From Bacteroidota bacterium (GTDB lineage Bacteria; Bacteroidota; Bacteroidia; Chitinophagales; Chitinophagaceae): DNA of 33,360 nucleotides. A program made the translations under genes and the position numbers. The stretch is taken from the NCBI GenBank assembly GCA_029558715.1, contig JAKQEA010000026.1:1-33360 (forward strand), in the 5' to 3' direction. This document shows, piece by piece, positions 19,461 through 33,360 of this stretch (positions within the stretch are counted from its first letter, which is position 1; each line of letters starts with the position of its first letter). The notes beneath the pieces were generated by a model. It was given only the letters and a program-made list of their open reading frames with translations, was not told the origin of the DNA and searched no databases.

Positions 19461-20357
19461 CTATTTAAAAATGTTATAGCGGAGCAATACCTCATGGGCG
19501 TTGGATCCGGCATCGAATACACTGATCGGTGTTTTGTAAATGTCAAAAGAATAACCAAGTGTAAATTTCTTGTTCAGGTTCACACCAGCTGAAAGTATGA
19601 AGCTTTGCTTGGCTCTTAATGCAAGACCCCACCAGAACACTTCGCTATGCTCTACTCTTACACCCCCCTGGAATTCCAGTGGTGCATTGGGCAGGTAGAT
19701 AAACAAAAAGTTGGGGGTGATTGATGTAGCATCATCCACATTCCATTTGTAAGAACCATGGAAATAATAGTGACGGTACAAGCGGGCCTCTTCTGATGTC
19801 GAAAGATTACCGGAATAGAAATCAAGTTTAGATTGGATAAGCTGTGATACAGAAGCACCCAATTGTAATTTCTTATCAGTATAAGAAATACCAAAGCCTG
19901 CATCAAATTTGAAACGGTTATCGCTGGTACCCAGCGCCGGATCAGATCCTAATGTCTCGGACAGTTTGGCCCTGTCCAGGGAATATTGCTGACCTCTTGC
20001 TTCAATACCTAATGAGAATTTACCGCCGTTTGCCGTTGGAATATGTTTGGCAAACTGTAAAGCAATACCAGTCCTGGAAGTGGGTCCCGTTTTATCATTG
20101 TACAAATAACCACCCAGGCCGATCTTTTGCTCAGGTAATTCAAAAGAACCAAATAATGTAGCCGTCTTCGGGCTGCCGCTGATACCACTCCACTGGCTTC
20201 TGTAAGTAGCGCCAACCATTCCCTTCTGGTACACACCGGCGGTTGAAGGATTATGCATCACTCCCTGCATATCATACATGGAAGATGTTTGCAACTGCTG
20301 TGCATTAACCGTTGTAACAACTCCGGCAACTAATGCTAATATTATAATGCGTTTCAT
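19461..20357 (-). CDS. PorP/SprF family type IX secretion system outer-membrane protein
   Basis: 298-residue outer-membrane beta-barrel-type protein. A signal peptide occupies about residues 1-19 (MKRIIILALVAGVVTTVNAQ). Family features are the MYDMQGVMHNPSTAGVYQKG segment after the signal, VGATYRSQWSGISGSPKT, repeated amphipathic strands such as KIGLGGYLYND, and the end VLLRYNIFK. SprF of Flavobacterium johnsoniae is needed for export of SprB; PorP/SprF proteins commonly sit beside the type-B cargo they serve. Here it is 21 bp downstream of the 1125-residue cargo, so the pairing is well supported. A terminator follows the gene. Confidence 0.93.
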   Translation of the reverse strand: MKRIIILALVAGVVTTVNAQQLQTSSMYDMQGVMHNPSTAGVYQKGMVGATYRSQWSGISGSPKTATLFGSFELPEQKIGLGGYLYNDKTGPTSRTGIALQFAKHIPTANGGKFSLGIEARGQQYSLDRAKLSETLGSDPALGTSDNRFKFDAGFGISYTDKKLQLGASVSQLIQSKLDFYSGNLSTSEEARLYRHYYFHGSYKWNVDDATSITPNFLFIYLPNAPLEFQGGVRVEHSEVFWWGLALRAKQSFILSAGVNLNKKFTLGYSFDIYKTPISVFDAGSNAHEVLLRYNIFK

Positions 20358-20378: not shown

Positions 20379-23300
20379 TTATCTCAAAATTGTTACGTCG
20401 CCTTTCAGGGTAATGGATGCACCGTTGATCAGGCGGTAGGTAATCGCATAGTAATACGTACCATCTGCTACAGGCTTGCCTTTATAAGTACCATCCCATT
20501 TGTTCTGGTAGTTATCATCCTTGAATACGATATTACCATAGCGGTTGAACACAGTAGCAAATACTTGTTTTGTACAGGAGCCGCCATTGTTGGTAACGAT
20601 CCATACATCATTTTGTCCGTCACCGTTTGGTGTAAAGGCATTCATTACTTTCAGGCAGTAAGGAATTACGTTCACTACCATATTGTCGGTTGATGTACAA
20701 TTATTGTTATCTCTTACCGTAAGTGTATATATAGTGGTAGTGTTTGGTTTAGCTACCGGTGTATAGGTATTGGCCCCTGTTAATGTACTGTTTGGTGTCC
20801 ATGCAATAGAAGCAGGGGTCGTAGTACCGCTTCCTTCCAGTATTACTTCATCGCCATCTACGATTGTTTTATCAGGACCTGCGTTGATCACAGGGTTTGG
20901 TTTGATACCAATATTTATTGTTTTGTTTCGTACACAACCATTCAGCGTAGCAGTAACCGTGTAAGCAGCATTTGAGTTGACTGTTGCAACAGGATTGCTG
21001 ATGTTGGCAGCAGACAAACCTCCGGAAGGAGACCATGCATACGTTGCGCCTGTTCCGTTTGTTGATGCCAGCATCTGTACAGGTGCGCCGGCACAAACCA
21101 GTGTATCATTATTGGTGGTCAGTGCCAGGTTATCGTTGAATCCAATATTGATTGTTTTGGTAATAATACCACAGAAAGCATCCTTTACAACAATGGTTTG
21201 GGGCCCCTGTGTCAGTCCCGTGAAAGAGTTAGAAGATTGGAATGCACCGCCATTGATACTATACGTATATGGAGCAATACCGCCTGTTGTGTTCACCGTG
21301 ATGCTTCCCCCGGTTGGGTTTGTACAGGAAGCGTTCGTTACCGTTTCAGTAGTATTAACATTTACATTGGCAGGATTGCCATATTCCATAATATGTCCTG
21401 CTACGTTAGGTAACGTAAATCCTGATACAAATACTTTCCTGTTTTCAAATGTAATTACGGGAGGTACTGTTTTCGGAGAAAAGGCCAGTGTGTTGAACAA
21501 ACTGTTGGTGGGTGCTATATCATGTGTCCAGGATGCACCGCCGTTAGTTGTTTTAAACAACACACCACCGGGAGAAATTACATAGCCATTGTTAACATCG
21601 TGAAACAGTACGGCATTAAGGTTACCTCCGCCAAAAGCAGTGATGTTGCTGGTAATATCCTGCCAGGTAGCACCGCCGTCAGTTGTTTTAAATACAACTT
21701 TCCTGGGGAAACCGTTACCGGTTAAGAATACCACATTTTCATTCAGGGCAAACATATCCGTATAAGTGATCTGAGGAGTAACTCCGGGTGTTGGTAACGG
21801 GAGCTTGTTCCATGTAACACCGCCATCCGTTGTTTTCCATATAGTATCTCTTGATCCAGCTACATAACCTATGAGGTTGGTAGGGAATTCAATAAATCGA
21901 AGGTTTTGAAAAGTAGATCCGGTATGAAACCCGTTGAAGGTGGTCCAGGTGGCACCGCCATTGGTTGATCTGAAAACTTTAGGTGATCTTGATGCTGACG
22001 GAACAGAAAAACCGCTGTATCCTACTACCCACACACTATCGTTTCCAATAGTTGCCACATCCCACATTTGTTCATTGCTGTTGGCGAAAACAGGATCTAA
22101 AGTTGGGTTGGCCGGCGGAACAGCATTTATATCATCCGATTTGTAAATAGTTCCTACACTGGTAGCGAAATAAGCCTTAGCCGGGTTATTCGGCACATAA
22201 GCATGAGAATTAATAGAAATATTCAGAGCTGTAAAATCTGATCTTGTTCTGTCGAACCAGGTGGTGCCGCCATCGTTTGTTACAGCGATGGAGGAGCCGC
22301 CGGAGGCCATCCCGTTATTACAATCAGCAAATTCAATTTTACCATAAGCACCTGCTACCTGCAGTTTGTAATTGGTCTGCCAGGGTGAGCCTGCAGATGA
22401 ATCTGCCACCACACCATTAGTACCCAATGTCAGGAATTTACCATTAGGGGCAATATCCAATGCCCATGTGCCAAATGCACTGTAATTCTGTCCCTGTGGC
22501 AAACTATTTACCTGAATCCAGTTTCTACCCGTGTCAACAGAGGTCCAGAAACGTCCAAAGTTTCCGGTAGCATACAAAGTACCGTTGTCGGCCTTTTTTA
22601 TATGATAGGGATTAGAAGCCAGCAATACCTGGGGATTGGGAATGGGGGGGCCGGCTTGCGGGCCCTGCGTAGGCGGGAAAGGAAAATTCATGATCTCGTA
22701 CCGTCCGCCTTCATTCAACCCGGTAGCCAGGTTGGATGTGCTGTCGTTCCGGCCGGTATGAATCCTGATCACACAGTTGTTGTTAAATGACATGATCAGT
22801 AATAAAGAATCATTAATGATATTAATCGCCCGGTATTGCTGGGGTACCGGCGAGATCTGGGCGCCGTTGTAGGAAGCGGTACAGGTGACGGTGTTGGTAT
22901 TGATACCTGAATACCCCAGTCTTTCCTTACTTATTGAATAGTCCGTAAGAACGCCGTTCGAATATTTCCAGACAAGCGCTGCGTTATGGGCGCTGGTTGT
23001 CAGGTTACCCGTAGAGGGTAAACAGGTGGAAGAGTTGGCATTGGAGCTGACCCTGGGAAACAGTGATGAGCCGCCACCGGTGATATAGCCAGTCGTGGGG
23101 CTTGAAAATTCTATCCGCCAGATTTCCTTTCCTTTAGCGGTTACATCCCATATCTGAGAGGGGATATTAGGGTTGTTGATATAACCTACCCTTGTTTTTC
23201 CGCCTATCGGGGCATTCAGTGAATCCCAACTTGCACCGCCGTTATGGGTGAAATACAGTTTAGGGATAGAGTCGATGGAATTCCACTGTCCGGCGATATA

Positions 23301-23756
23301 GCCTGTATTTTCATTTACAAACCAGACGGTATTGATATTCCTTCCCGTACTGTAAAATGGAGTTTGCAACAGGTTCCAGCTTACGCCGCCATCTGTACTT
23401 TTTGCCATACAGCCTAATGAACCAACGGCGTAAGCAACATCTGCTGACACAAAATGAACATCGGAAAGAGAGGGCTTCCGCCATACACCTGCCGTGTTTG
23501 CAAAAGTGAATGGTCCGTAGGTCCAGTTATTTCCGCCATCTGTTGTTCTTGCTATGCCGCCTTCGGAACCTACGGCAAGGGCAATATTGTTATCCAAAAA
23601 ATCAACATCAAAAGGAGTAAACCCGAATTGCCTTGGATTGCTGAACCTCCAGTTGGTGGTGTTATAATTACTCTGACCAATGGCCAGCAGGGAAGAAAAG
23701 AAAAACAAAATTACCAGCAGGTAATGATATGCTTTTCCGTTGCAGCGCTTCTTCAT
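20379..23756 (-). CDS. T9SS type-B cargo: Ycf48/BNR-type repeats, SprB repeat and gliding-motility (CHU_C) C-terminal domain
   Basis: 1125-residue secreted surface protein. The signal peptide is about residues 1-27 (...FFFSSLLAIGQ). Residues about 30-770 hold many short TTDGGxxW / TNGGxxW blocks spaced through the chain, as in Ycf48/BNR-type beta-propellers. A SprB repeat lies at about 798-870 (NASCTNPTGGSITVNTTGG, PYTYSINGGAF). Two Ig/PKD-like segments follow (CAGAPVQMLAS; INAGPDKTIVDGDEV). The last 90 residues are the type-B sorting domain, beginning MNAFTPNGDGQNDVWIV and ending SITLKGDVTILR. It is exported through the T9SS, probably with the PorP/SprF protein encoded 21 bp downstream. An adhesin or gliding-related role is an inference from SprB; no ligand is known. 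Confidence 0.92.
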   Translation of the reverse strand: MKKRCNGKAYHYLLVILFFFSSLLAIGQSNYNTTNWRFSNPRQFGFTPFDVDFLDNNIALAVGSEGGIARTTDGGNNWTYGPFTFANTAGVWRKPSLSDVHFVSADVAYAVGSLGCMAKSTDGGVSWNLLQTPFYSTGRNINTVWFVNENTGYIAGQWNSIDSIPKLYFTHNGGASWDSLNAPIGGKTRVGYINNPNIPSQIWDVTAKGKEIWRIEFSSPTTGYITGGGSSLFPRVSSNANSSTCLPSTGNLTTSAHNAALVWKYSNGVLTDYSISKERLGYSGINTNTVTCTASYNGAQISPVPQQYRAINIINDSLLLIMSFNNNCVIRIHTGRNDSTSNLATGLNEGGRYEIMNFPFPPTQGPQAGPPIPNPQVLLASNPYHIKKADNGTLYATGNFGRFWTSVDTGRNWIQVNSLPQGQNYSAFGTWALDIAPNGKFLTLGTNGVVADSSAGSPWQTNYKLQVAGAYGKIEFADCNNGMASGGSSIAVTNDGGTTWFDRTRSDFTALNISINSHAYVPNNPAKAYFATSVGTIYKSDDINAVPPANPTLDPVFANSNEQMWDVATIGNDSVWVVGYSGFSVPSASRSPKVFRSTNGGATWTTFNGFHTGSTFQNLRFIEFPTNLIGYVAGSRDTIWKTTDGGVTWNKLPLPTPGVTPQITYTDMFALNENVVFLTGNGFPRKVVFKTTDGGATWQDITSNITAFGGGNLNAVLFHDVNNGYVISPGGVLFKTTNGGASWTHDIAPTNSLFNTLAFSPKTVPPVITFENRKVFVSGFTLPNVAGHIMEYGNPANVNVNTTETVTNASCTNPTGGSITVNTTGGIAPYTYSINGGAFQSSNSFTGLTQGPQTIVVKDAFCGIITKTINIGFNDNLALTTNNDTLVCAGAPVQMLASTNGTGATYAWSPSGGLSAANISNPVATVNSNAAYTVTATLNGCVRNKTINIGIKPNPVINAGPDKTIVDGDEVILEGSGTTTPASIAWTPNSTLTGANTYTPVAKPNTTTIYTLTVRDNNNCTSTDNMVVNVIPYCLKVMNAFTPNGDGQNDVWIVTNNGGSCTKQVFATVFNRYGNIVFKDDNYQNKWDGTYKGKPVADGTYYYAITYRLINGASITLKGDVTILR

Positions 23757-23824
23757 TTTGGTTGTTTTTTAAAAGTGGAAGTTGAAATGAGCAGCAAGGT
23801 TAGCCCAAGTCATGGGTAGTGCTT

Positions 23825-23840
23825 GTAGAATTAATTCTAC
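23825..23840. promoter_or_regulatory. 16-bp perfect palindrome, candidate operator (copy 1)
   Basis: GTAGAATTAATTCTAC is a perfect palindrome in the 116-bp spacer between the divergent cargo genes, 32 bp before the ATG at 23873 and 68 bp before the start of the minus-strand operon. Nearly the same sequence, TAGAATAAATTCTAC, occurs just upstream of the response regulator at 30285. It may be bound by that regulator. Confidence 0.6.
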
Positions 23841-23872
23841 CATTTTCAATTGATAATTGTCTCAATATTGAC

Positions 23873-26800
23873 ATGGGAAAAATGATGCGAAAACCACTGA
23901 AACATACATGGCTGCTGATTCTGCTTCTGACTGCCTTAGTAGCTGGCGCTCAGGATAAATCAAATCGTGGTAAAGAGTTTTGGCTAGGATATGGATACTG
24001 CTGGAATTTTACATCAGAACCACCGCTTAACACCCAGGAGCTGGTGCTTTATTTAAGTGCTGATGCACCAGCAACCGTTACCGTATCAATATCAAATACC
24101 GGATGGAGTCAAACAGTTAGTATCCCCGCCAATACTGTGAATGCGAGCATTTTAATTCCCAAAACCGGAGCAGATGATGCCCGCATTTTCAACGAAGGAT
24201 TGCATAACAAAGCGGTCCACATTGTGAGTGATACTCCTATTGTAGTCTATGCTCACACTTATAATGGTATGATTTCGGCGGCCACCATGCTCATGCCGGT
24301 TGAAACGTACGGCTATAAGTATTACTCTTTAAATTATTCACAAGCCCAATCTGGCTCTAGCCCTCCGAACCCGCCAATTACCACTACACAAAACGGCCCG
24401 GACTGGTATTCCTGGTTTTATGTGATTGCCTCAGAAGACAATACAAGATTAGAAATTACACCTTCTGACAGCACCCGAAACGGTTGGTTGCCTAATCAGA
24501 CATATACAGTGAATCTGAATAAAGGAGAGATCTATAATGTAATGGGTAAGCTTGGGACTGGTAATCAAACCTGGGCTGCAAGTAAAGACATGACAGGAAG
24601 TAAAGTTGTTTCTATACCCGGTAATGACGGAAACTGCCATCCTGTAGCTTTATTTTCCGGAAGCAGCGGAATCAGGTTGTGTAAAAATGATGGTGGGGAA
24701 ACAATGCAACAGCAGGTTTTTCCTTTGCAGGCATGGGGTACCCGTTACCTCACTTATCATATGCTTAATAACACATCCACAGATATTAATGACCCGTTTA
24801 AAAATTTTTATCGGATTGCAGTGGCAGATCCTGCTACCGTAGTCAGAAGAAACGGAGTGCCTTTGACTGGATTGATCAATAATTTCTATTATGAAATACT
24901 GGATAGTACGGGGGGCGATTTTATAGAAGCTGATAAGCCGGTTCTGGTGGCACAGTATACACCGGGCGGGAATCGTTGTTATATGGCCAGCAGTTTTGCT
25001 TATGGCGACCCGGAAATGTTTTATCTCAGCCCGATGGAGCAGGGAAAAAAAGATGTGTTATTCTATGCTACCCGAAACAGGAATATTGACTACAATTATT
25101 TGAATATTATTGTACCAACAGCCGGCCTGGGTTCTTTACAATTAGACGGAGCACCCTTTCTTCCTGCTAATACAAGGGTTCATCCTAATAATCCGGCATA
25201 CACCGTGGCCGTTGCCAGGATACCTGGTGCTGCAGCACAACACAGGGTTACCTGTGACTCTTCCTTTACCGGTACATTATATGGCCTTGGTTTTTTTGAA
25301 AGCTATGGCTACAATATTGGTACAAACATCAACAACCTGAATTACTACAGCTCCATAAAAAACAGTCTTAATACTACCAATACAACCGATACATTTACCT
25401 GCCCCAAATCGCCGGTGCGTTTATTTGTAAAGATCGGGCACCCGGCTACTTCCATTCACTGGAAGCTGAGCCAGGTGACAGGCATCACCCCGAATGCTGA
25501 TTCTATCATCACAAACCCGGTACCGGTTCAAACAGAAAGTATCAATGGAAGAACCTATTATACTTATACCCTGCAACAGGACTTTACCTTTGCTAACCCC
25601 GGCACTTATTATATACCTGTTTCATACACCGCAACGGTTATCGAAAATTGCAGCCAGACAGAAAATGCACAGGTAAAAGTGGTAGTGAAGCCGGGGCCTA
25701 AAGCAGACTTTACTTTCCCTGCACCGGCTTGTTTACTCGATAGTATACGTTTTACCGGCGCTGCTATTCCCGGCACATTCAACCTGGTAAATTACAACTG
25801 GACATTTGACGATAACAGCACAGCCAGTACTATCAACACTGTTAAGCTATTTACTGCAGCGGGTAATCAGAATGTACGTTACAGGGTGATAGCCGACAAC
25901 GGTTGTGTAGGCGATACTACCAAAACCGTTACCATCCTTGACAGCCCTGTTGCTGCTTTTACCGTAAATGCAACTATCTGCCAACGGGATTCTGTAAGAA
26001 TAGTAGATGCTTCTGCTATACCATCCGGTACTATTGCCAGTTGGCAATGGAATTTTGGTGATGGCAATACCAGTACCAGAACAACAAATACTCCTTTCTA
26101 TCACCAATACACCACTCCGGGCAATTATACTATTTCACTCATTACCGTTGCTGCCAGCGGTTGTAAAAGCGATACTGCTTTTATGCCGGTAACCGTATTG
26201 CCAAAACCATTGGCAACATTTAGTACAGGAGGTAATGTTTGTCTCGGTGATTCGGTACGATTTATTGATGCCTCCACTTCCACAGCCGGCGCCATCACCA
26301 GCTGGCAATGGAATTTCGGCGACGGCAACAGCAGTACACTCACTACTAACAACCCGTTTTATCATACTTATACCGCTGCGGGAAATTACCCGGTGACGCT
26401 GATCGTTTCAGCGATTAATGGTTGCAGCAGTGATACCTTCAGGCTTACGGTGAATATAAGCAGTAAGCCTGCCGCTACTTTTACTTATAATGGAAAACCA
26501 TGTATTGATAGTTTGCTGACATTTTCTTCTTCGGTACCCACAGGCGGTGCTAATCCTCCCGCCTGGCATTGGAACTTTGGCGACGGCCAAACCTTTAATT
26601 CTGCTACTGCCAATACCGCTTCTCATTCTTACGCTGCATCTCTTACCAATATCACCGTAAAACATTGGATAAGTTATAGTGCCGGATGCAGCAGCGATAC
26701 CGCTTTTGCCACTATTCCGTTAATCAATGCAAACCCGGTAGCCTCCTTTACTGTTACCGGAGATACCCTTTGTGAAAGAAAACCAATCACCCTTACATCA

Positions 26801-27487
26801 ACTGTAACAGGAGTAAGTAACTGGAACTGGACACTGGGTAATGGCAGCAGCACTGCTGCTCCGCCTTTTACTCATTCGTATAATACGGCCAATACTTATA
26901 CTATCAGCCTGGTGGTAAGCACTGCTGCAGGATGCGGATCGTTACCTGCCACACAAACAATAACGATTAACCCAACCCCTGCGATCAATGCAGGACCCGA
27001 TAAGTTTATCCGGCTGGGCTCTTCCACTACATTAGATGCGACTATCAATAACCCGGCTGATTATAATTTCCTGTGGACACCTTCCCAATACCTGAGTGCC
27101 ACAAACATCCTGAACCCGGTATCTACTCCTGATAATTTAATTACATATACGATACAGGCAATTGATAAGTTGAATAATTGTATAGCCACAGACCAGGTAG
27201 TAGTCACTCCTGTATCAGATATTTTTATTCCCAATGCTTTTACTCCAAACGGAGATGGTAAAAATGATAAATGGGTAATTCCCGGGCTTGCCTTATATCC
27301 TGAAGCAAGGGTATCTGTATTCAACAGGGCCGGTCAGCTTATCTATGATACAAAAAGCTACACCAGTAATCCATGGAATGGTACTTACAAAGGTATTGTT
27401 CAGCCAAACGAAGTATATGTTTACCTGGTACAGCTGAATGACGAAAGAAAACAAATCTTCAAAGGAACAGTTACGATCATCCGGTAA
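23873..27487 (+). CDS. Large T9SS type-B surface protein: IgGFc-binding-type N-domain, five PKD domains, CHU_C domain (paralogue 1)
   Basis: 1204-residue secreted protein. The signal peptide ends about residue 27 (LLLTALVAGAQ). Residues about 28-510 match the IgGFc-binding-protein N-terminal type domain of Bacteroidota: RGKEFWLGYGY, SDTPIVVYAHTYN, AATMLMPVETYGYKYYSL, FVKIGHP further on. PKD domains begin at about 611, 692, 780, 866 and 956, several with the WNFGDG core. An Ig-like segment starts near 1037 (INAGPDKFIRLG) and the type-B sorting domain near 1116 (FIPNAFTPNGDGKNDKW ... FKGTVTIIR). The start at ATG 23873 (or ATG 23882) fits the signal peptide; the longer frame from 23819 does not. 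Likely a surface adhesin; despite the family name, antibody binding is not implied. Confidence 0.9.
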   Translation: MGKMMRKPLKHTWLLILLLTALVAGAQDKSNRGKEFWLGYGYCWNFTSEPPLNTQELVLYLSADAPATVTVSISNTGWSQTVSIPANTVNASILIPKTGADDARIFNEGLHNKAVHIVSDTPIVVYAHTYNGMISAATMLMPVETYGYKYYSLNYSQAQSGSSPPNPPITTTQNGPDWYSWFYVIASEDNTRLEITPSDSTRNGWLPNQTYTVNLNKGEIYNVMGKLGTGNQTWAASKDMTGSKVVSIPGNDGNCHPVALFSGSSGIRLCKNDGGETMQQQVFPLQAWGTRYLTYHMLNNTSTDINDPFKNFYRIAVADPATVVRRNGVPLTGLINNFYYEILDSTGGDFIEADKPVLVAQYTPGGNRCYMASSFAYGDPEMFYLSPMEQGKKDVLFYATRNRNIDYNYLNIIVPTAGLGSLQLDGAPFLPANTRVHPNNPAYTVAVARIPGAAAQHRVTCDSSFTGTLYGLGFFESYGYNIGTNINNLNYYSSIKNSLNTTNTTDTFTCPKSPVRLFVKIGHPATSIHWKLSQVTGITPNADSIITNPVPVQTESINGRTYYTYTLQQDFTFANPGTYYIPVSYTATVIENCSQTENAQVKVVVKPGPKADFTFPAPACLLDSIRFTGAAIPGTFNLVNYNWTFDDNSTASTINTVKLFTAAGNQNVRYRVIADNGCVGDTTKTVTILDSPVAAFTVNATICQRDSVRIVDASAIPSGTIASWQWNFGDGNTSTRTTNTPFYHQYTTPGNYTISLITVAASGCKSDTAFMPVTVLPKPLATFSTGGNVCLGDSVRFIDASTSTAGAITSWQWNFGDGNSSTLTTNNPFYHTYTAAGNYPVTLIVSAINGCSSDTFRLTVNISSKPAATFTYNGKPCIDSLLTFSSSVPTGGANPPAWHWNFGDGQTFNSATANTASHSYAASLTNITVKHWISYSAGCSSDTAFATIPLINANPVASFTVTGDTLCERKPITLTSTVTGVSNWNWTLGNGSSTAAPPFTHSYNTANTYTISLVVSTAAGCGSLPATQTITINPTPAINAGPDKFIRLGSSTTLDATINNPADYNFLWTPSQYLSATNILNPVSTPDNLITYTIQAIDKLNNCIATDQVVVTPVSDIFIPNAFTPNGDGKNDKWVIPGLALYPEARVSVFNRAGQLIYDTKSYTSNPWNGTYKGIVQPNEVYVYLVQLNDERKQIFKGTVTIIR
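25700..26980 (+). repeat. Tandem PKD-domain coding repeats
   Basis: Five repeat units of about 80-90 codons. Units 2 and 3 are closest: both encode SWQWNFGDGN followed by PFYHxYT and GNYxxxLI, at about 26040 and 26300. Unit 4 has HWNFGDGQ near 26570. The downstream paralogue retains only counterparts of units 1 and 5. Confidence 0.8.
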
Positions 27488-27519
27488 TCAGTAACTGCTA
27501 TTACCAGATTATTTAAAGA

Positions 27520-30279
27520 ATGCCCTTTTCAAACAGATACTATTTTTTGCTATGCCTGACAATGTGTTTATATTTTCATCTGCCGGCACAGTATAAATCA
27601 AACAAGGGAAAAGAGTTCTGGCTGGGATATGGACACAATGTTTTATTTACACAGGCTTCTCCGCCCAACAGCCAGGCACATGTGTTATACCTGAGTGCAG
27701 AGCAGGCGGCTTCTGTAACCGTTTCAATAAACGGAACCAGCTGGAGCCAAACAGTGAACATTCCCGCTAACACAGTTGATTTTTCTATTATTATCCCCAA
27801 GACCGGCCCCGAAGATGCAAGACTTACCGGGGAAGGTTTATTTACCAAAGGCATTCATATAGTAAGTGACGTACCGATCGTTGTTTATTCACATCAATAT
27901 AACCTTGTTTCATCTGCCGCCACGATGCTGATGCCGGTAGAAACATATGGTTATACTTATTACTCCCTGAATTTTACACAAGTCTCCAACAGCCCGGAAA
28001 GTTATTCCTGGTTTTATGTAGTAGCAGCAGAAAACAGTACGAGAATACTTATCACTCCTTCGGATTCAACCGAAGGAGGATGGTTGCCTGGTCAAACGTA
28101 TACTATTAATTTAAACAAGGGTGAGATCTATAATGTATTCGGAAAGAGAACCGGAACATATACCGGAAAGGATATGAGCGGCAGCAAGATTGTTTCTGTA
28201 GCAGGAGCTGATGCTAACTGTCACCCGGTAGCTGTTTTCTCCGGCAGCAGCCGGATCGTTATCTGCAATGGAAACGGAGGGGAAGTGATGCAGCAACAGA
28301 TCTTTCCTGCCAATGCATGGGGTACCCGGTACCTGACCTATCGCACTTTCAATAATCCTGTCATAAACATTAGTGATCCTTTTTTAAATTATTACCGGGT
28401 GGCAGTGAGAGATCCCGCCACTATTGTAAGAAGAAACGGGGTACCACTAACGGGGCTGATCAATAATTTCTATTATGAATTTATCAGTACTTCCGGCGAT
28501 TATATTGAAGCCGACCAACCGGTCCTGGTGGCACAATATACTGTCTCCACCAATGAGTGTACCGGTACAGCACCAAATCCATACGGTGATCCCGAAATGA
28601 TCTACCTGAGCCCGATAGAACAAGGAGTGAAAAGCGCTGTATTCTACAGCACCCGCAACCAGGCCATTGATATGAACTTCATCAATGTGATCATTCCCCA
28701 AACAGGCCTGGCTTCTTTACGCATCGACGGAACTCCTGTTACTGCAGCAGAATACATTACTCATCCAGCCAACAATAACTATGCAGTAGTGGTCAGGCGG
28801 TTTTTTGGCGCAGCTGGACAACACAGTGTAAGCAGTGATTCCACTTTTATTGCTTCGGTATACGGAGTGGGTATATTTGAAAGTTATGGTTATAACATGG
28901 GCACTTTTGTTAACAACCTGAATGCTTACAGCAGTATCCGTAACACAATGAACAGCACTAATCAGACAGATACCTTCACCTGTCCCAAAACTCCATTTCG
29001 TATAAGTGTACAACTGGCTTACCGGGCCAGTTCCGTTCACTGGAAACTGAGCCAGGCAGCTGGTTTAAATCCTGGTACTGATTCTATCATTACCAATCCC
29101 GCACCCGTTGATTCATCTTTCATCAACGGAAGAAAATATTATACCTATACCCTGCAACAGGATTTCACTTTTGCTGCGGCAGGTATATATTATATACCGG
29201 TTACTTATACAGCGCCTGATATTGATGCCTGCGATCAAACAGAAACCACGACTATAAAAGTAGTGGTGAAGCCGGGACCCAAAGCGGATTTTACTTTTAA
29301 TGACCCCGCCTGCCAGGCTGATAATATTCTTTTTACCGGCACTTCTGTTGCAGGAAGTTTTAACATCATTAATTACCACTGGCTTTTTGATGATAACAGT
29401 ACCGCCAATACCATCAATACAACAAAACTATTTGCGGCAACAGGTAATCAAACGGTTCGTTACCGTATATATGCCGACAACGGCTGTATTGGTGATACTG
29501 CTAAAACAATAATGATCAACGCAACACCAGTTGCTTCATTTTCTGTCGGCGGAGCACCTTTTTGTACAGGTAAACCTGTTACAATTTTATCCGCTGCTAC
29601 CGGTATAAGCAACTGGAACTGGGACCTGGGAAATACTACCAGCACTGCCGTTCCTTCGTTTACTCATTTGTATAATACGGCCGGCAGTTACACAATTACA
29701 CTTACTACAGCAAACGCTGCGGGTTGTAGTTCTGTTCCTGCTACCCAAACAATCACTATCAACACCACCCCGGTAGTAAATGCAGGAACAGATACTGCCA
29801 TACGGGCGGGCAATTCTGTTACGCTGAATGCCAGTATTTCTCCTGCCGGTAATTATACTTACACCTGGTCTCCTTCTCTATACCTCAATGCGGCTTCGGT
29901 ATTAAACCCGGTTTCCACACCCGGCGAAACAACAAAGTATACCTTACTGGCTGTTGACAACCTGGGCAATTGTGCCGCAAGTGATGAAGTAATTATTACA
30001 GTTGTGTCAGCGCTTTACATTCCCAACGCCTTTACGCCTAATAAAGATGGTAAGAACGATAAATGGGTGATCCCGGGCCTTGCTTTATATCCTGAAGCAA
30101 GAGTATTGGTATTCAACAGGGCCGGGCAACTGGTTTATGATACAAAAGGATACAGCAGCAACCCCTGGGATGGAACATTCAGGGGTATTGTTCAGTCCAA
30201 TGATGTATATGTTTATCTCGTACACCTGAATGATGATCAAAAACAGGTGTTGAAAGGAACTGTTACGATAATCAGGTAG
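27520..30279 (+). CDS. T9SS type-B surface protein: IgGFc-binding-type N-domain, two PKD domains, CHU_C domain (paralogue 2)
   Basis: 919-residue paralogue of the preceding protein, 32 bp downstream and surely co-transcribed with it. The signal peptide ends about residue 24 (CLYFHLPAQ). The N-domain repeats the same blocks: KGKEFWLGYGH, SDVPIVVYSHQYN, AATMLMPVETYGYTYYSL. It keeps a first PKD-like unit at about 588 (ADFTFNDPAC) and a last one at about 670 (WNWDLGNTTS), an Ig-like segment at about 752 and the type-B domain from about 832 (YIPNAFTPNKDGKNDKW). The three middle PKD units of paralogue 1 are absent, which accounts for the length difference. The C-terminal 90 residues are very similar to those of paralogue 1, but the DNA has diverged at many codon positions, so the duplication is not recent. 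Confidence 0.9.
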   Translation: MPFSNRYYFLLCLTMCLYFHLPAQYKSNKGKEFWLGYGHNVLFTQASPPNSQAHVLYLSAEQAASVTVSINGTSWSQTVNIPANTVDFSIIIPKTGPEDARLTGEGLFTKGIHIVSDVPIVVYSHQYNLVSSAATMLMPVETYGYTYYSLNFTQVSNSPESYSWFYVVAAENSTRILITPSDSTEGGWLPGQTYTINLNKGEIYNVFGKRTGTYTGKDMSGSKIVSVAGADANCHPVAVFSGSSRIVICNGNGGEVMQQQIFPANAWGTRYLTYRTFNNPVINISDPFLNYYRVAVRDPATIVRRNGVPLTGLINNFYYEFISTSGDYIEADQPVLVAQYTVSTNECTGTAPNPYGDPEMIYLSPIEQGVKSAVFYSTRNQAIDMNFINVIIPQTGLASLRIDGTPVTAAEYITHPANNNYAVVVRRFFGAAGQHSVSSDSTFIASVYGVGIFESYGYNMGTFVNNLNAYSSIRNTMNSTNQTDTFTCPKTPFRISVQLAYRASSVHWKLSQAAGLNPGTDSIITNPAPVDSSFINGRKYYTYTLQQDFTFAAAGIYYIPVTYTAPDIDACDQTETTTIKVVVKPGPKADFTFNDPACQADNILFTGTSVAGSFNIINYHWLFDDNSTANTINTTKLFAATGNQTVRYRIYADNGCIGDTAKTIMINATPVASFSVGGAPFCTGKPVTILSAATGISNWNWDLGNTTSTAVPSFTHLYNTAGSYTITLTTANAAGCSSVPATQTITINTTPVVNAGTDTAIRAGNSVTLNASISPAGNYTYTWSPSLYLNAASVLNPVSTPGETTKYTLLAVDNLGNCAASDEVIITVVSALYIPNAFTPNKDGKNDKWVIPGLALYPEARVLVFNRAGQLVYDTKGYSSNPWDGTFRGIVQSNDVYVYLVHLNDDQKQVLKGTVTIIR

Positions 30280-30284
30280 GCCAA

Positions 30285-30299
30285 TAGAATAAATTCTAC
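30285..30299. promoter_or_regulatory. Candidate operator palindrome (copy 2) upstream of the response regulator
   Basis: TAGAATAAATTCTAC has perfect 6-bp arms, TAGAAT and ATTCTA, around AA. It matches 14 of 15 bases of the palindrome at 23826-23840. It lies 5 bp after the stop of paralogue 2 and 18 bp before the response-regulator ATG, a position suited to autoregulation. Confidence 0.6.
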
Positions 30300-30317: not shown

Positions 30318-30977
30318 ATGGAAATTAGTACATTAAATACCAGCATTCAGACCGAAATCCTGAAAAAAATGCCGCCAAAAATTCTAATAGCAGACGATCA
30401 CAGTATGATTCGAAAGGGTCTGAAACTTAATATCAAGCTTTCGCTGGGATATACCGATATCGAAGAAGTGGGCACCTGCAACGACCTGATGAAGGAATTG
30501 GTAAAGAAAAAATATAGTCATCTTATCCTGGATATAATCCTTTCCGATGGGAGTACTCTTGAGGTGATCCCTAACATAAGAAGGGTATATCCCGACCTGA
30601 ATATTTTAGTTTTTTCTATGCAGCCCGCCGAGATATATGGTGAAGCCCTGAAACAATACGGTATCAATTATTATTTATCTAAGTCTGCTGGCGATGATGA
30701 AATGATGCTGGTGCTGCAGAAATTTTTGCTCAACGAGGCCCCGGTAAGAAGAAATGATATTCATCATCATGACAATCCGTTTAAAACGCTGGCGCCAAGA
30801 GAGCTTGAAATATTACATTATGTATTGAAAGGAATTGGAACTAAGGAAATATCTGAGACCCTGAACCTGAAGATGAACACCGTATCTACCATCAAGACCC
30901 GTATCTATGAAAAAACAAATGCGGGAAATATAAAGGAACTGATAGAACTGGCCACGCTGTACAATGTAAATTATTAA
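30318..30977 (+). CDS. NarL/LuxR-family response regulator
   Basis: 219-residue two-component response regulator. The receiver domain has the acidic pair in ILIADDHSM, the phospho-acceptor Asp in HLILDIILSDG, the Ser of LVFSMQ and the Lys of YYLSKSA. The C-terminal LuxR-type helix-turn-helix begins LAPRELEILHYVLKG and includes TKEISETLNLKMNTVSTIKT. It acts as a DNA-binding transcription factor after phosphorylation, probably by the sensor kinase encoded 34 bp downstream. The start may be 30318 or the Met at 30369 (MPPKILIADDH). A palindrome directly upstream, shared with the promoter region of the surface-protein genes, suggests that it controls itself and them. Confidence 0.92.
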   Translation: MEISTLNTSIQTEILKKMPPKILIADDHSMIRKGLKLNIKLSLGYTDIEEVGTCNDLMKELVKKKYSHLILDIILSDGSTLEVIPNIRRVYPDLNILVFSMQPAEIYGEALKQYGINYYLSKSAGDDEMMLVLQKFLLNEAPVRRNDIHHHDNPFKTLAPRELEILHYVLKGIGTKEISETLNLKMNTVSTIKTRIYEKTNAGNIKELIELATLYNVNY

Positions 30978-31011: not shown

Positions 31012-33360
31012 ATGCAAAGGTTCCTGATTTTTCAATACCTCCTCCTTATTCTCGTGGGTCCGGTCGTTGCCCAGACCGTCGGAAATTCACACCTGCGGCA
31101 ATATACCACAGACAATGGTTTGCCTTCAAACGGGATCAAGGGTTTGCAGTGGGATGAACAAACAGGTTTTTTGTGGATTGCCACCGAAGCCGGTATTGTG
31201 CGGTTCAATGGCGTTGACTTCCGTTCTTACACGAAGGAAAATACTCCTTCCATTTCTTCTGAAAGAATGCTTTTCATGGTTCGTAACATTACCGGCAATA
31301 TTTACATATCGGATATGCCCGGTAATATTTTTTCCATTGAGCAAAACAAACCCGTACTATGGAAAAAAGGAACGGCTTCTGTGAATCCGTATTATGCTAA
31401 CTACTTTTTACTCGCTGTATCGGATACTTTTTTTCAACAACATAACAATATCGTCAACACCCGTTTTTCCGCTGTTACAGATAAGATCATTGCCCTGGGT
31501 GATACTTCCTGCCTGGTTCTAAGTATGGGAATTCTATTTTATCACTCTCTCAGTTTAAAATTTCCGGTCCCCCTTCCTTTTGAGAAAAACAGTTTCAAAT
31601 CAATTTTTAAAATTGAAGGACAGTGCTTTCTTGTCAACAAGAAGAATGAGGCTTTTCTTTTAAATACAACCAACTTTTCAATGTCTCCTGTTCCTGTTAT
31701 TAAAGACAGGGGTAGTTCAGAGATTTTTACTCCTGGCAATAATCCGATATTCTGGGAACCGGGAATGAATGACCCGGTTTTAATTGAGAAAGAAAAGGCC
31801 TGGTTATTTACGTATAAGGATAATAAAATAATTGCCACTTTGGCATTTACGGGAATTCCATCGGATGCACTTATCAGGACAATACAATACAGTAAAAAAA
31901 ATAAAACGCTTTTTATCGGAACGGACTCAAAAGGATTGATAGTTCTTAACCAAACTGCAGTAACCACCAAAAAAAGGACCAGCGCCGACTCAAAGAACCG
32001 GAATTCTTATTATTCACAAATTGAACTTCCGAACGGAAATGTGTTAACCAATGAAGGAGATATTATTGGCGACCAGTCCCCGCTAACAACCCCTTTACCT
32101 GTAAAAGGAAAATTTTCCTATTATGTTTCCGGCACTGGTGACAGTTTGATTTGGTACAGCCAGTTCAATCCCTCTGTTGGCGGTCTTTGCATACACCAGT
32201 ACAATAAAATATCCGGCCAGACAAAGGTATTTGGCAAACTGAGGTCCGACTATGTAGTGGCTGCTTCCGGTTCACAGTATTATTTAGCCAATAGTGTGGG
32301 GGTAGGTATCCTGGAGAATGATACTATCAGGGTTCTTCACAAGTACAGCGGAAAGAATATTGGAAACATCACTTTTGATATCAAAGAAATAGAGCCGGGT
32401 GTACTGGTTATTGCCACCTGCAATGGATTATTCAGGTTTCACACCAGTACTTCACGGCTGGATACTCTTTTCAGTAAGGAAAATATTTGTGTGCGGAGTA
32501 TCTGGAAGTACAAGGACTATGTTTTCTTCGGTACGTATGGATCCGGGTTTTATATCTACAGGAACGGGCAGATAAAATCAATGCCGCTGGACAAGAATAA
32601 GTATTTACTGTATGCACATTGTTTTGTACCCGACGATAATGGTTATTGCTGGATCAGCACCAACCACGGATTATTTAAATCAAGCCTTGCAGAACTTATT
32701 AATGTCTTTGAAAATAAAGCAACCTATACCTATTATCATTATTTCGGAAAAAAAGACGGGATGGAAATGACCGAGCTGAACGGTGGCTGTACTCCCTGTG
32801 CACTGCGTTTAAAAAACAATACGATCTCTTTTCCGTCTATGGATGGTTTACTATGGGTAAAACCGGAAGAGGCTCTTCCGGTGCTGCCGGAAGGAAATAT
32901 TTTTATTGATGAGGTCCTGATTGATGATGAAATAAAAGATCCTGAATCCCTCTCCCAAAAAAGCCTTCCTTTCAAAACGGGTGAAATAATTATACGGCTG
33001 GCTTTTTCTGCCTGGTGTAATAAAGAGAATATTTACCTCGAATACCAGTTGAACGATACGGTTAACTGGAAACCCATCAACTCCGGAACTGAATCAGAAA
33101 TCCGGTTTAATAACCTTCCTTCCGGACGCTACACACTGCGGATAAGAAAACTAAATGGGTTCGGTTTCAGCAATTACACTTATAAAACAATCAATTTCTC
33201 CATCACCACCCCCTGGCATCAGCAATGGTGGTTCTTTGTGCTCAGCTCATTGATTGTACTGGGATTGCTATCCCTGTATTTCCGATTCAGAACAAGACAA
33301 TATGAAATACGGCAGCGGAAATTGGAAAAGCAGGTGGCAGAAAAAACAAGAGAACTGCAA
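31012..33360 (+). CDS. Two-component-propeller sensor kinase, 3' end outside window
   Basis: Hand-translated from ATG 31012; 783 codons are open to the window end. The signal peptide is about residues 1-21 (LLLILVGPVVAQ). The periplasmic sensor has propeller-type blades: LRQYTTDNGLPSNGIKG, then GFLWIATEAGIVRFNG, and later GYCWISTNHGLFKS. A Y_Y_Y-type beta domain lies near residues 665-735 (LEYQLNDTVNWKPI, LPSGRYTLRIRKLNG). A membrane segment at about 739-758 (WWFFVLSSLIVLGLLSLYF) is followed by the start of a coiled coil (KLEKQVAEKTREL), the usual lead into a kinase domain. The kinase itself is not in the window, so its class (HisKA_3 or LytS type) cannot be determined. It is probably the partner of the adjacent response regulator. 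Confidence 0.88.
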   Translation, partial: MQRFLIFQYLLLILVGPVVAQTVGNSHLRQYTTDNGLPSNGIKGLQWDEQTGFLWIATEAGIVRFNGVDFRSYTKENTPSISSERMLFMVRNITGNIYISDMPGNIFSIEQNKPVLWKKGTASVNPYYANYFLLAVSDTFFQQHNNIVNTRFSAVTDKIIALGDTSCLVLSMGILFYHSLSLKFPVPLPFEKNSFKSIFKIEGQCFLVNKKNEAFLLNTTNFSMSPVPVIKDRGSSEIFTPGNNPIFWEPGMNDPVLIEKEKAWLFTYKDNKIIATLAFTGIPSDALIRTIQYSKKNKTLFIGTDSKGLIVLNQTAVTTKKRTSADSKNRNSYYSQIELPNGNVLTNEGDIIGDQSPLTTPLPVKGKFSYYVSGTGDSLIWYSQFNPSVGGLCIHQYNKISGQTKVFGKLRSDYVVAASGSQYYLANSVGVGILENDTIRVLHKYSGKNIGNITFDIKEIEPGVLVIATCNGLFRFHTSTSRLDTLFSKENICVRSIWKYKDYVFFGTYGSGFYIYRNGQIKSMPLDKNKYLLYAHCFVPDDNGYCWISTNHGLFKSSLAELINVFENKATYTYYHYFGKKDGMEMTELNGGCTPCALRLKNNTISFPSMDGLLWVKPEEALPVLPEGNIFIDEVLIDDEIKDPESLSQKSLPFKTGEIIIRLAFSAWCNKENIYLEYQLNDTVNWKPINSGTESEIRFNNLPSGRYTLRIRKLNGFGFSNYTYKTINFSITTPWHQQWWFFVLSSLIVLGLLSLYFRFRTRQYEIRQRKLEKQVAEKTRELQ

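Follow-up and report, generated by a model that had tools for sequence, protein, structure and literature searches.

How Bacteroidota choose type IX cargo for display is, to our knowledge, largely an open question. FimR of Porphyromonas gingivalis is a LuxR-type regulator. The consulted excerpt of the report on FimS/FimR describes a Bacteroidota two-component system that directly activates a surface-structure gene, mfa1 (PMC1974823). The locus described here also carries a two-component system, with CHU_C cargo in place of fimbriae, and it has a palindrome of a kind that the same excerpt does not mention for FimS/FimR. PorX/PorY shares with the present locus a two-component control tied to type IX secretion; going by the title of the source, PorX is not a direct regulator of the secretion genes (PMC5005315), whereas the cargo genes of the present locus carry a probable operator for a regulator with a GerE domain. 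The RcsB/RcsAB box, as excerpted from its source, likewise involves a GerE-type response regulator, and its TTAGGAA/TCTAAGA half-sites share purine-rich AGA/GGAA letters with TAGAAT, although the half-site letters and spacing differ and no RcsA-like auxiliary regulator was seen here (PMC5829831).

A further parallel is with NarL of Escherichia coli, whose 7-2-7 sites, in the part of the source consulted, are inverted heptamers 2 bp apart bound by a GerE-domain dimer, with sites at -40 to -49 (napF) and -38 to -47 (yeaR) serving as upstream activating sites (PMC4549865). The sequence GTAGAAT-TA-ATTCTAC follows the same 7-2-7 plan, is near-invariant in 26 loci, and has a predicted upstream position comparable to the -40 to -49 found at some NarL promoters. 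However, its heptamer is GTAGAAT, compared with TACCCCT in an engineered NarL site from the same excerpt (PMC4549865), and a single site faces two promoters here. By this analogy the palindrome appears to work like a NarL site without being one.

The window, the whole 33,360-nucleotide stretch analysed, is contig JAKQEA010000026.1 of a Chitinophagaceae genome (GCA_029558715.1), and contains the following features.

19461-20357, minus strand: PorP/SprF gene behind the divergent CHU_C gene.
20379-23756, minus strand: gene for the divergent CHU_C protein with YCF48-like and SprB repeats.
23795-23802, minus strand: -7-like box TAACCTTG, putative promoter element of the minus-strand operon, 23 nt from the core of operator 1.
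23823-23842, no strand: candidate operator 1, with core TAGAATTAATTCTA at 23826-23839, 7-2-7-like 16-mer GTAGAATTAATTCTAC at 23825-23840, and a conserved TTG on the left.
23863-23870, plus strand: -7-like box CAATATTG, putative promoter element of the plus-strand operon, 23 nt from the core of operator 1.
23882-27487, plus strand: surface protein 1 gene (IgGFc_binding, PKD, CHU_C).
27520-30279, plus strand: surface protein 2 gene, a paralog of surface protein 1 (IgGFc_binding/PKD/CHU_C).
30285-30299, no strand: candidate operator 2, 15-mer TAGAATAAATTCTAC with core TAGAATAAATTCTA at 30285-30298, before the regulator gene.
30321-30328, plus strand: -7-like box GAAATTAG, 22 nt from operator 2.
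30369-30977, plus strand: NarL/LuxR-type response regulator gene (Response_reg and GerE), predicted start moved from 30318.
31012-33360, plus strand: sensor kinase gene (Reg_prop, weak Y_Y_Y), cut by the contig end.

Both domains of the regulator score over the curated cut-off (Response_reg, 1e-15; GerE, 1.7e-13), and the relatives with solved structures that come nearest to it in sequence include VraR, DesR, EvgA, NarL and RcsB. Residues D9, D10, D55, S83 and K105, which we take to be the acidic pair, phospho-acceptor Asp, Ser/Thr and Lys of the receiver family, are invariant across an alignment of 34 regulators, one of which is truncated by a locus end. The kinase gene starts 34 nt downstream of the regulator gene, and a complete sensor ortholog at L099 (1022 aa) has a C-terminal HATPase_c domain and a Y_Y_Y match below the curated cut-off; gene position and this HATPase_c domain together point to a partner histidine kinase. 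At one distant locus, L129, only a short HATPase_c frame was seen near the regulator.

The initial annotation had placed near-identical palindromes at the two ends of the surface-protein block, and both lie where it put them, the two 15-mers being one base apart. It had also foreseen two objections to an operator, the first of which was that the palindrome might be common throughout the genome. This does not hold, as only two exact matches to TAGAATNNATTCTA occur in the 4,022,691 bases (235 contigs) of the window's own genome, both in the block, and the reversed-pattern control gave none in the same 4.02 Mb. A wider regulon within this genome was considered and rejected: there are no further exact sites, and the extended 20-mer TTGTAGAATTAATTCTACAA, at up to three mismatches, found operator 1 only (its reversed control also gave one match). 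With no further exact sites, there is no evidence of control over the other CHU_C or PorP/SprF genes of this genome, and fetched flanking DNA of 15 other regulator matches in it (12 with both domains, three with the receiver only) held no site within two mismatches. A full-text literature search for the core TAGAATTAATTCTA, outside whose coverage most subscription journals fall, returned no paper, and among the papers listed by keyword searches, including IgGFc with type IX secretion, none was seen to deal with this palindrome/regulator system.

Taken within the window alone the case for the palindrome is modest: when up to two mismatches are allowed, shuffles predict 2.09 matches and the window has three, including the two exact ones. 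Its strength comes from the relatives, through conservation and control half-sites. We searched 42 congeneric genomes, the window's own included. The regulator is present at 56% identity or more in 15 of them, and surface protein 1 at 58% or more in the same 15; a 34%-identity match in G009 was judged paralogous, and that genome is not among the 15. Across the 42 genomes there are 30 exact copies of the pattern, of which 18 fall in the block, compared with eight copies of the reversed control. An exact in-block site is present in 13 of the 15 regulator genomes, and G063 has one with a single mismatch; the G060 contig starts within the surface gene and thus does not reach operator 1.

For a wider set, contigs were scanned by short peptide patterns. 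This non-exhaustive scan gave 31 named loci, all titled metagenome-assembled genomes, which together with the window, G060 and G064 make 34 regulator loci. The second objection, that the palindrome might lack conservation at orthologous loci, fails: operator 1 is kept in all 26 loci with a visible divergent region (window included), 20 of them exact and six with one mismatch, and the mean major-base fraction of the palindrome in the aligned regions is 0.98. Two of the 26 were seen via a second contig of the same genome (L102 via L058, L118 via L065), and the count leaves out L098, L105, L107, L108 and L126, whose contigs begin past the site.

Specificity for the half-site was assessed in 36 sequence pieces (515,970 bases, of which 30,691 are non-coding when frames of at least 120 aa are taken as coding). 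The real half-site at up to one mismatch gave 45 matches, 39 of them non-coding and spread over 27 pieces, with 27 non-coding matches exact; the 59 other permutations of its letters gave a mean of 0.20 and a maximum of one non-coding match, none exact. The loci are kin, so these counts are neither independent nor to be read as probabilities. A chance resemblance, which would suit the three window matches set against 2.09 expected, can be considered ruled out by the conservation at 26 of 26 testable loci and by the 59 permuted half-sites, and we give it practically no weight.

The pattern of mismatches bears on whether the palindrome acts as RNA, in a hairpin or terminator-like element. Palindromes can fold, and for site 1 the folding of the RNA is somewhat stronger than in shuffled versions (z -1.71), of which 9 in 200 do as well, whereas site 2 shows no such advantage over its shuffles (z 0.31). 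In each of the six one-mismatch copies of operator 1 the change is in one half only, with no matching change in the other half to compensate, and the predicted position of the site is upstream of both starts. We regard an RNA element as highly improbable.

Within the genus the block and the regulator always co-occur, and only three loci of the wider set, L127, L128 and L129, separate them. At these loci (regulator identity 58-62%; the L128 locus is short, 6.6 kb) no surface-block gene was found beside the regulator, and the palindrome is upstream of the regulator in all three, once exact and twice with one mismatch. At L101 another PKD/CHU_C protein stands in place of the IgGFc-type gene, and the operator is kept with one mismatch. 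Because the site persists without the block at the first three loci and with swapped cargo at L101, it appears to track the regulator gene rather than the cargo, with the regulator as its constant companion. This linkage, the GerE domain and the 7-2-7 geometry together make the regulator the best candidate for the protein that binds the palindrome.

The binder could instead be another transcription factor encoded elsewhere, the regulator being merely one of its targets, and a few exact sites do occur in genomes without the regulator. Twelve of the 30 exact genus matches are outside the block, eight of them in six genomes lacking the regulator and four in regulator genomes; four of the 12 are inside predicted frames. 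A factor with further targets would, however, be expected to leave more sites than the two exact ones in the window's own genome, loci that lack the block still have the site next to the regulator, and the 7-2-7 geometry, on the excerpted account of NarL, suits a GerE dimer (PMC4549865). We consider a factor of this kind improbable, and the regulator remains our preferred binder.

Several palindromes away from the block are recorded here as observations in their own right. G030 has no regulator at E 1e-25, yet carries an exact palindrome 262 nt before a gene for a Por_Secre_tail protein (L055:4001) and another at L057:1352, where a peptidase M36 protein gene follows after 164 nt. Two-mismatch look-alikes upstream of a 29% regulator match in G030 and a 41% match in G036 were not counted. 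In G022 and G003, both without the regulator, an exact palindrome occupies the corresponding position, immediately ahead of a 242-aa frame that the two genomes share (L060:4001 and L061:4001), and is conserved there for some other reason. L127, with palindromes at 325, 6159 and 8103, has two further one-mismatch copies, one about 75 nt before a porin O/P gene, and these extra copies may be other targets. An exact palindrome in G028 (L050:4001) is 166 nt before the start of a different PorP/SprF-like gene. It was tried as a wider target and dropped because, among 30 loci fetched for that gene family, a palindrome with up to one mismatch occurs only at G028's own and is absent at the other 29.

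The divergent region has a fixed anatomy. When the 26 regions are aligned on the palindrome, two boxes that face outward emerge. The minus-side pattern.A...TTG begins at a distance of exactly 23 nt from the core in all 26 loci (TA...TTG in 25), and on the plus side.A...TTG does so in 23 of 26, with GAATATTG in 20; in the other three the plus box is not at 23 nt. None of the other box spacings tested exceeds four loci. Across the 26 regions the boxes have mean major-base fractions of 0.86 and 0.91, and the spacers, in which no -33 element was seen, have 0.54 and 0.49.

A class II activator site is centred near -41.5 relative to the start site. In the parts of the sources consulted, the Bacteroidota -7 consensus is TAnnTTTG (PMC7366714) and in Flavobacterium psychrophilum this box extends from -12 to -5 (PMC9723704). 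If the boxes here occupy -12 to -5, the spacing would place the core at -49 to -36 on both sides, with its centre at -42.5, so that the predicted position of operator 1 would be activator-like for both divergent promoters. On the same assumption for the plus box (window 23863-23882), the mRNA of surface protein 1 would have a leader of only about 7 nt and be near leaderless.

The same operator and regulator could also act by repression, the dimer at about -49 to -36 obstructing RNA polymerase at the two divergent promoters as well as at the gene for the regulator itself. A palindrome beside promoters fits either sign of control, and its position taken alone is compatible with repression. Yet the site is upstream of the -7-like boxes rather than over them, the spacers are poorly conserved and show no -33 element, and the NarL 7-2-7 sites at napF and yeaR, in similar positions, belong to NarL-activated promoters in the excerpted report (PMC4549865). 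We therefore think repression unlikely and favour activation.

The second site is less constant. A palindrome with at most one mismatch is present within 150 nt before the regulator at 16 of the 34 loci (L127, L128 and L129 included), which places a site at the regulator's own gene as expected of autoregulation. Two more loci, L101 and L108, have a two-mismatch palindrome before the regulator, L114 has a two-mismatch look-alike inside the preceding gene that was not counted, and at 15 of the 34 there is nothing within two mismatches (L105 shows only 74 nt upstream of the regulator). Operator 2 is thus optional, not general. At several loci without it the regulator is within a few dozen bases of the last surface gene, and in such loci the regulator could be read from operator 1.

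The arms flanking the two surface genes (17 nt, 94% alike) are near-identical palindromes, as might be expected of recombination sites in an invertible surface-protein cassette. The block, however, has one orientation at all mapped loci with both sites, as judged from assemblies only, many loci have one site only, and inversion would not require a fixed spacing to promoter-like boxes. Such an origin strikes us as very remote, and we continue to read the second palindrome as an operator copy.

A box like GAAATTAG is 22 nt from the palindrome in 13 of 13 block loci with operator 2, and a similar box is 23 nt after the palindrome in L129; in L127 and L128 the same box pattern was not found after it. 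The initial annotation had put operator 2 at 18 bp before the regulator start. Its palindrome coordinates stand, and the distance, counted from the ATG at 30318, is probably wrong. An ATG matching 30318 is missing in four of these 13 loci (L107, L115, L117 and L122) while the adjoining box stays, and for this reason the regulator most likely starts at ATG 30369, leaving a 70-nt gap from core to start with the -7-like box in between. The 30318-type ATG is likewise missing in L108, with its two-mismatch site. Against this stands L125, where an MEIG start is kept although no operator 2 can be recognised, an observation equally compatible with the upstream ATG.

We propose, with reasonable confidence, that the palindrome is the dedicated operator of the 30369-30977 regulator, activating both divergent operons, with a second copy at the regulator's own gene. 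The NarL/LuxR-type regulator would be phosphorylated by the product of the adjoining downstream kinase gene, and its dimer would bind GTAGAAT-N2-ATTCTAC. At operator 1 a single dimer would sit equidistant (centre about -42.5 from the predicted start sites) from the two divergent -7-like boxes, and would most likely activate both the minus-strand CHU_C-PorP/SprF operon and the plus-strand operon of IgGFc-type surface proteins, regulator and kinase. Operator 2, which repeats the arrangement of a palindrome followed after 22 nt by a -7-like box, would serve as the regulator's own promoter in about half of the relatives. The suggestion of the initial annotation that one regulator acts on the surface-protein operons and on its own gene is supported in this comparison by operator 1 at 26 of 26 loci and by the palindrome at all three blockless loci.

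On comparative grounds the palindrome is thus well supported as a new case of an already known type of system, in which a NarL/LuxR-type regulator has an autoregulatory operator, here at genes for type IX secretion cargo. We lean, by a small measure, towards a broader reading in which the locus is a portable surface-display cassette: a two-component system with a near-invariant operator that would act as a mirror-symmetric double activator site, one dimer driving two divergent type IX cargo operons, with cargo that could be swapped while operator and regulator stay. The analysis names a regulator, a probable 16-bp operator, two putative mirror-placed promoters and a probable corrected start codon. 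With these, the control of type IX cargo gains a concrete candidate operator that can be tested with one protein and a short DNA fragment.
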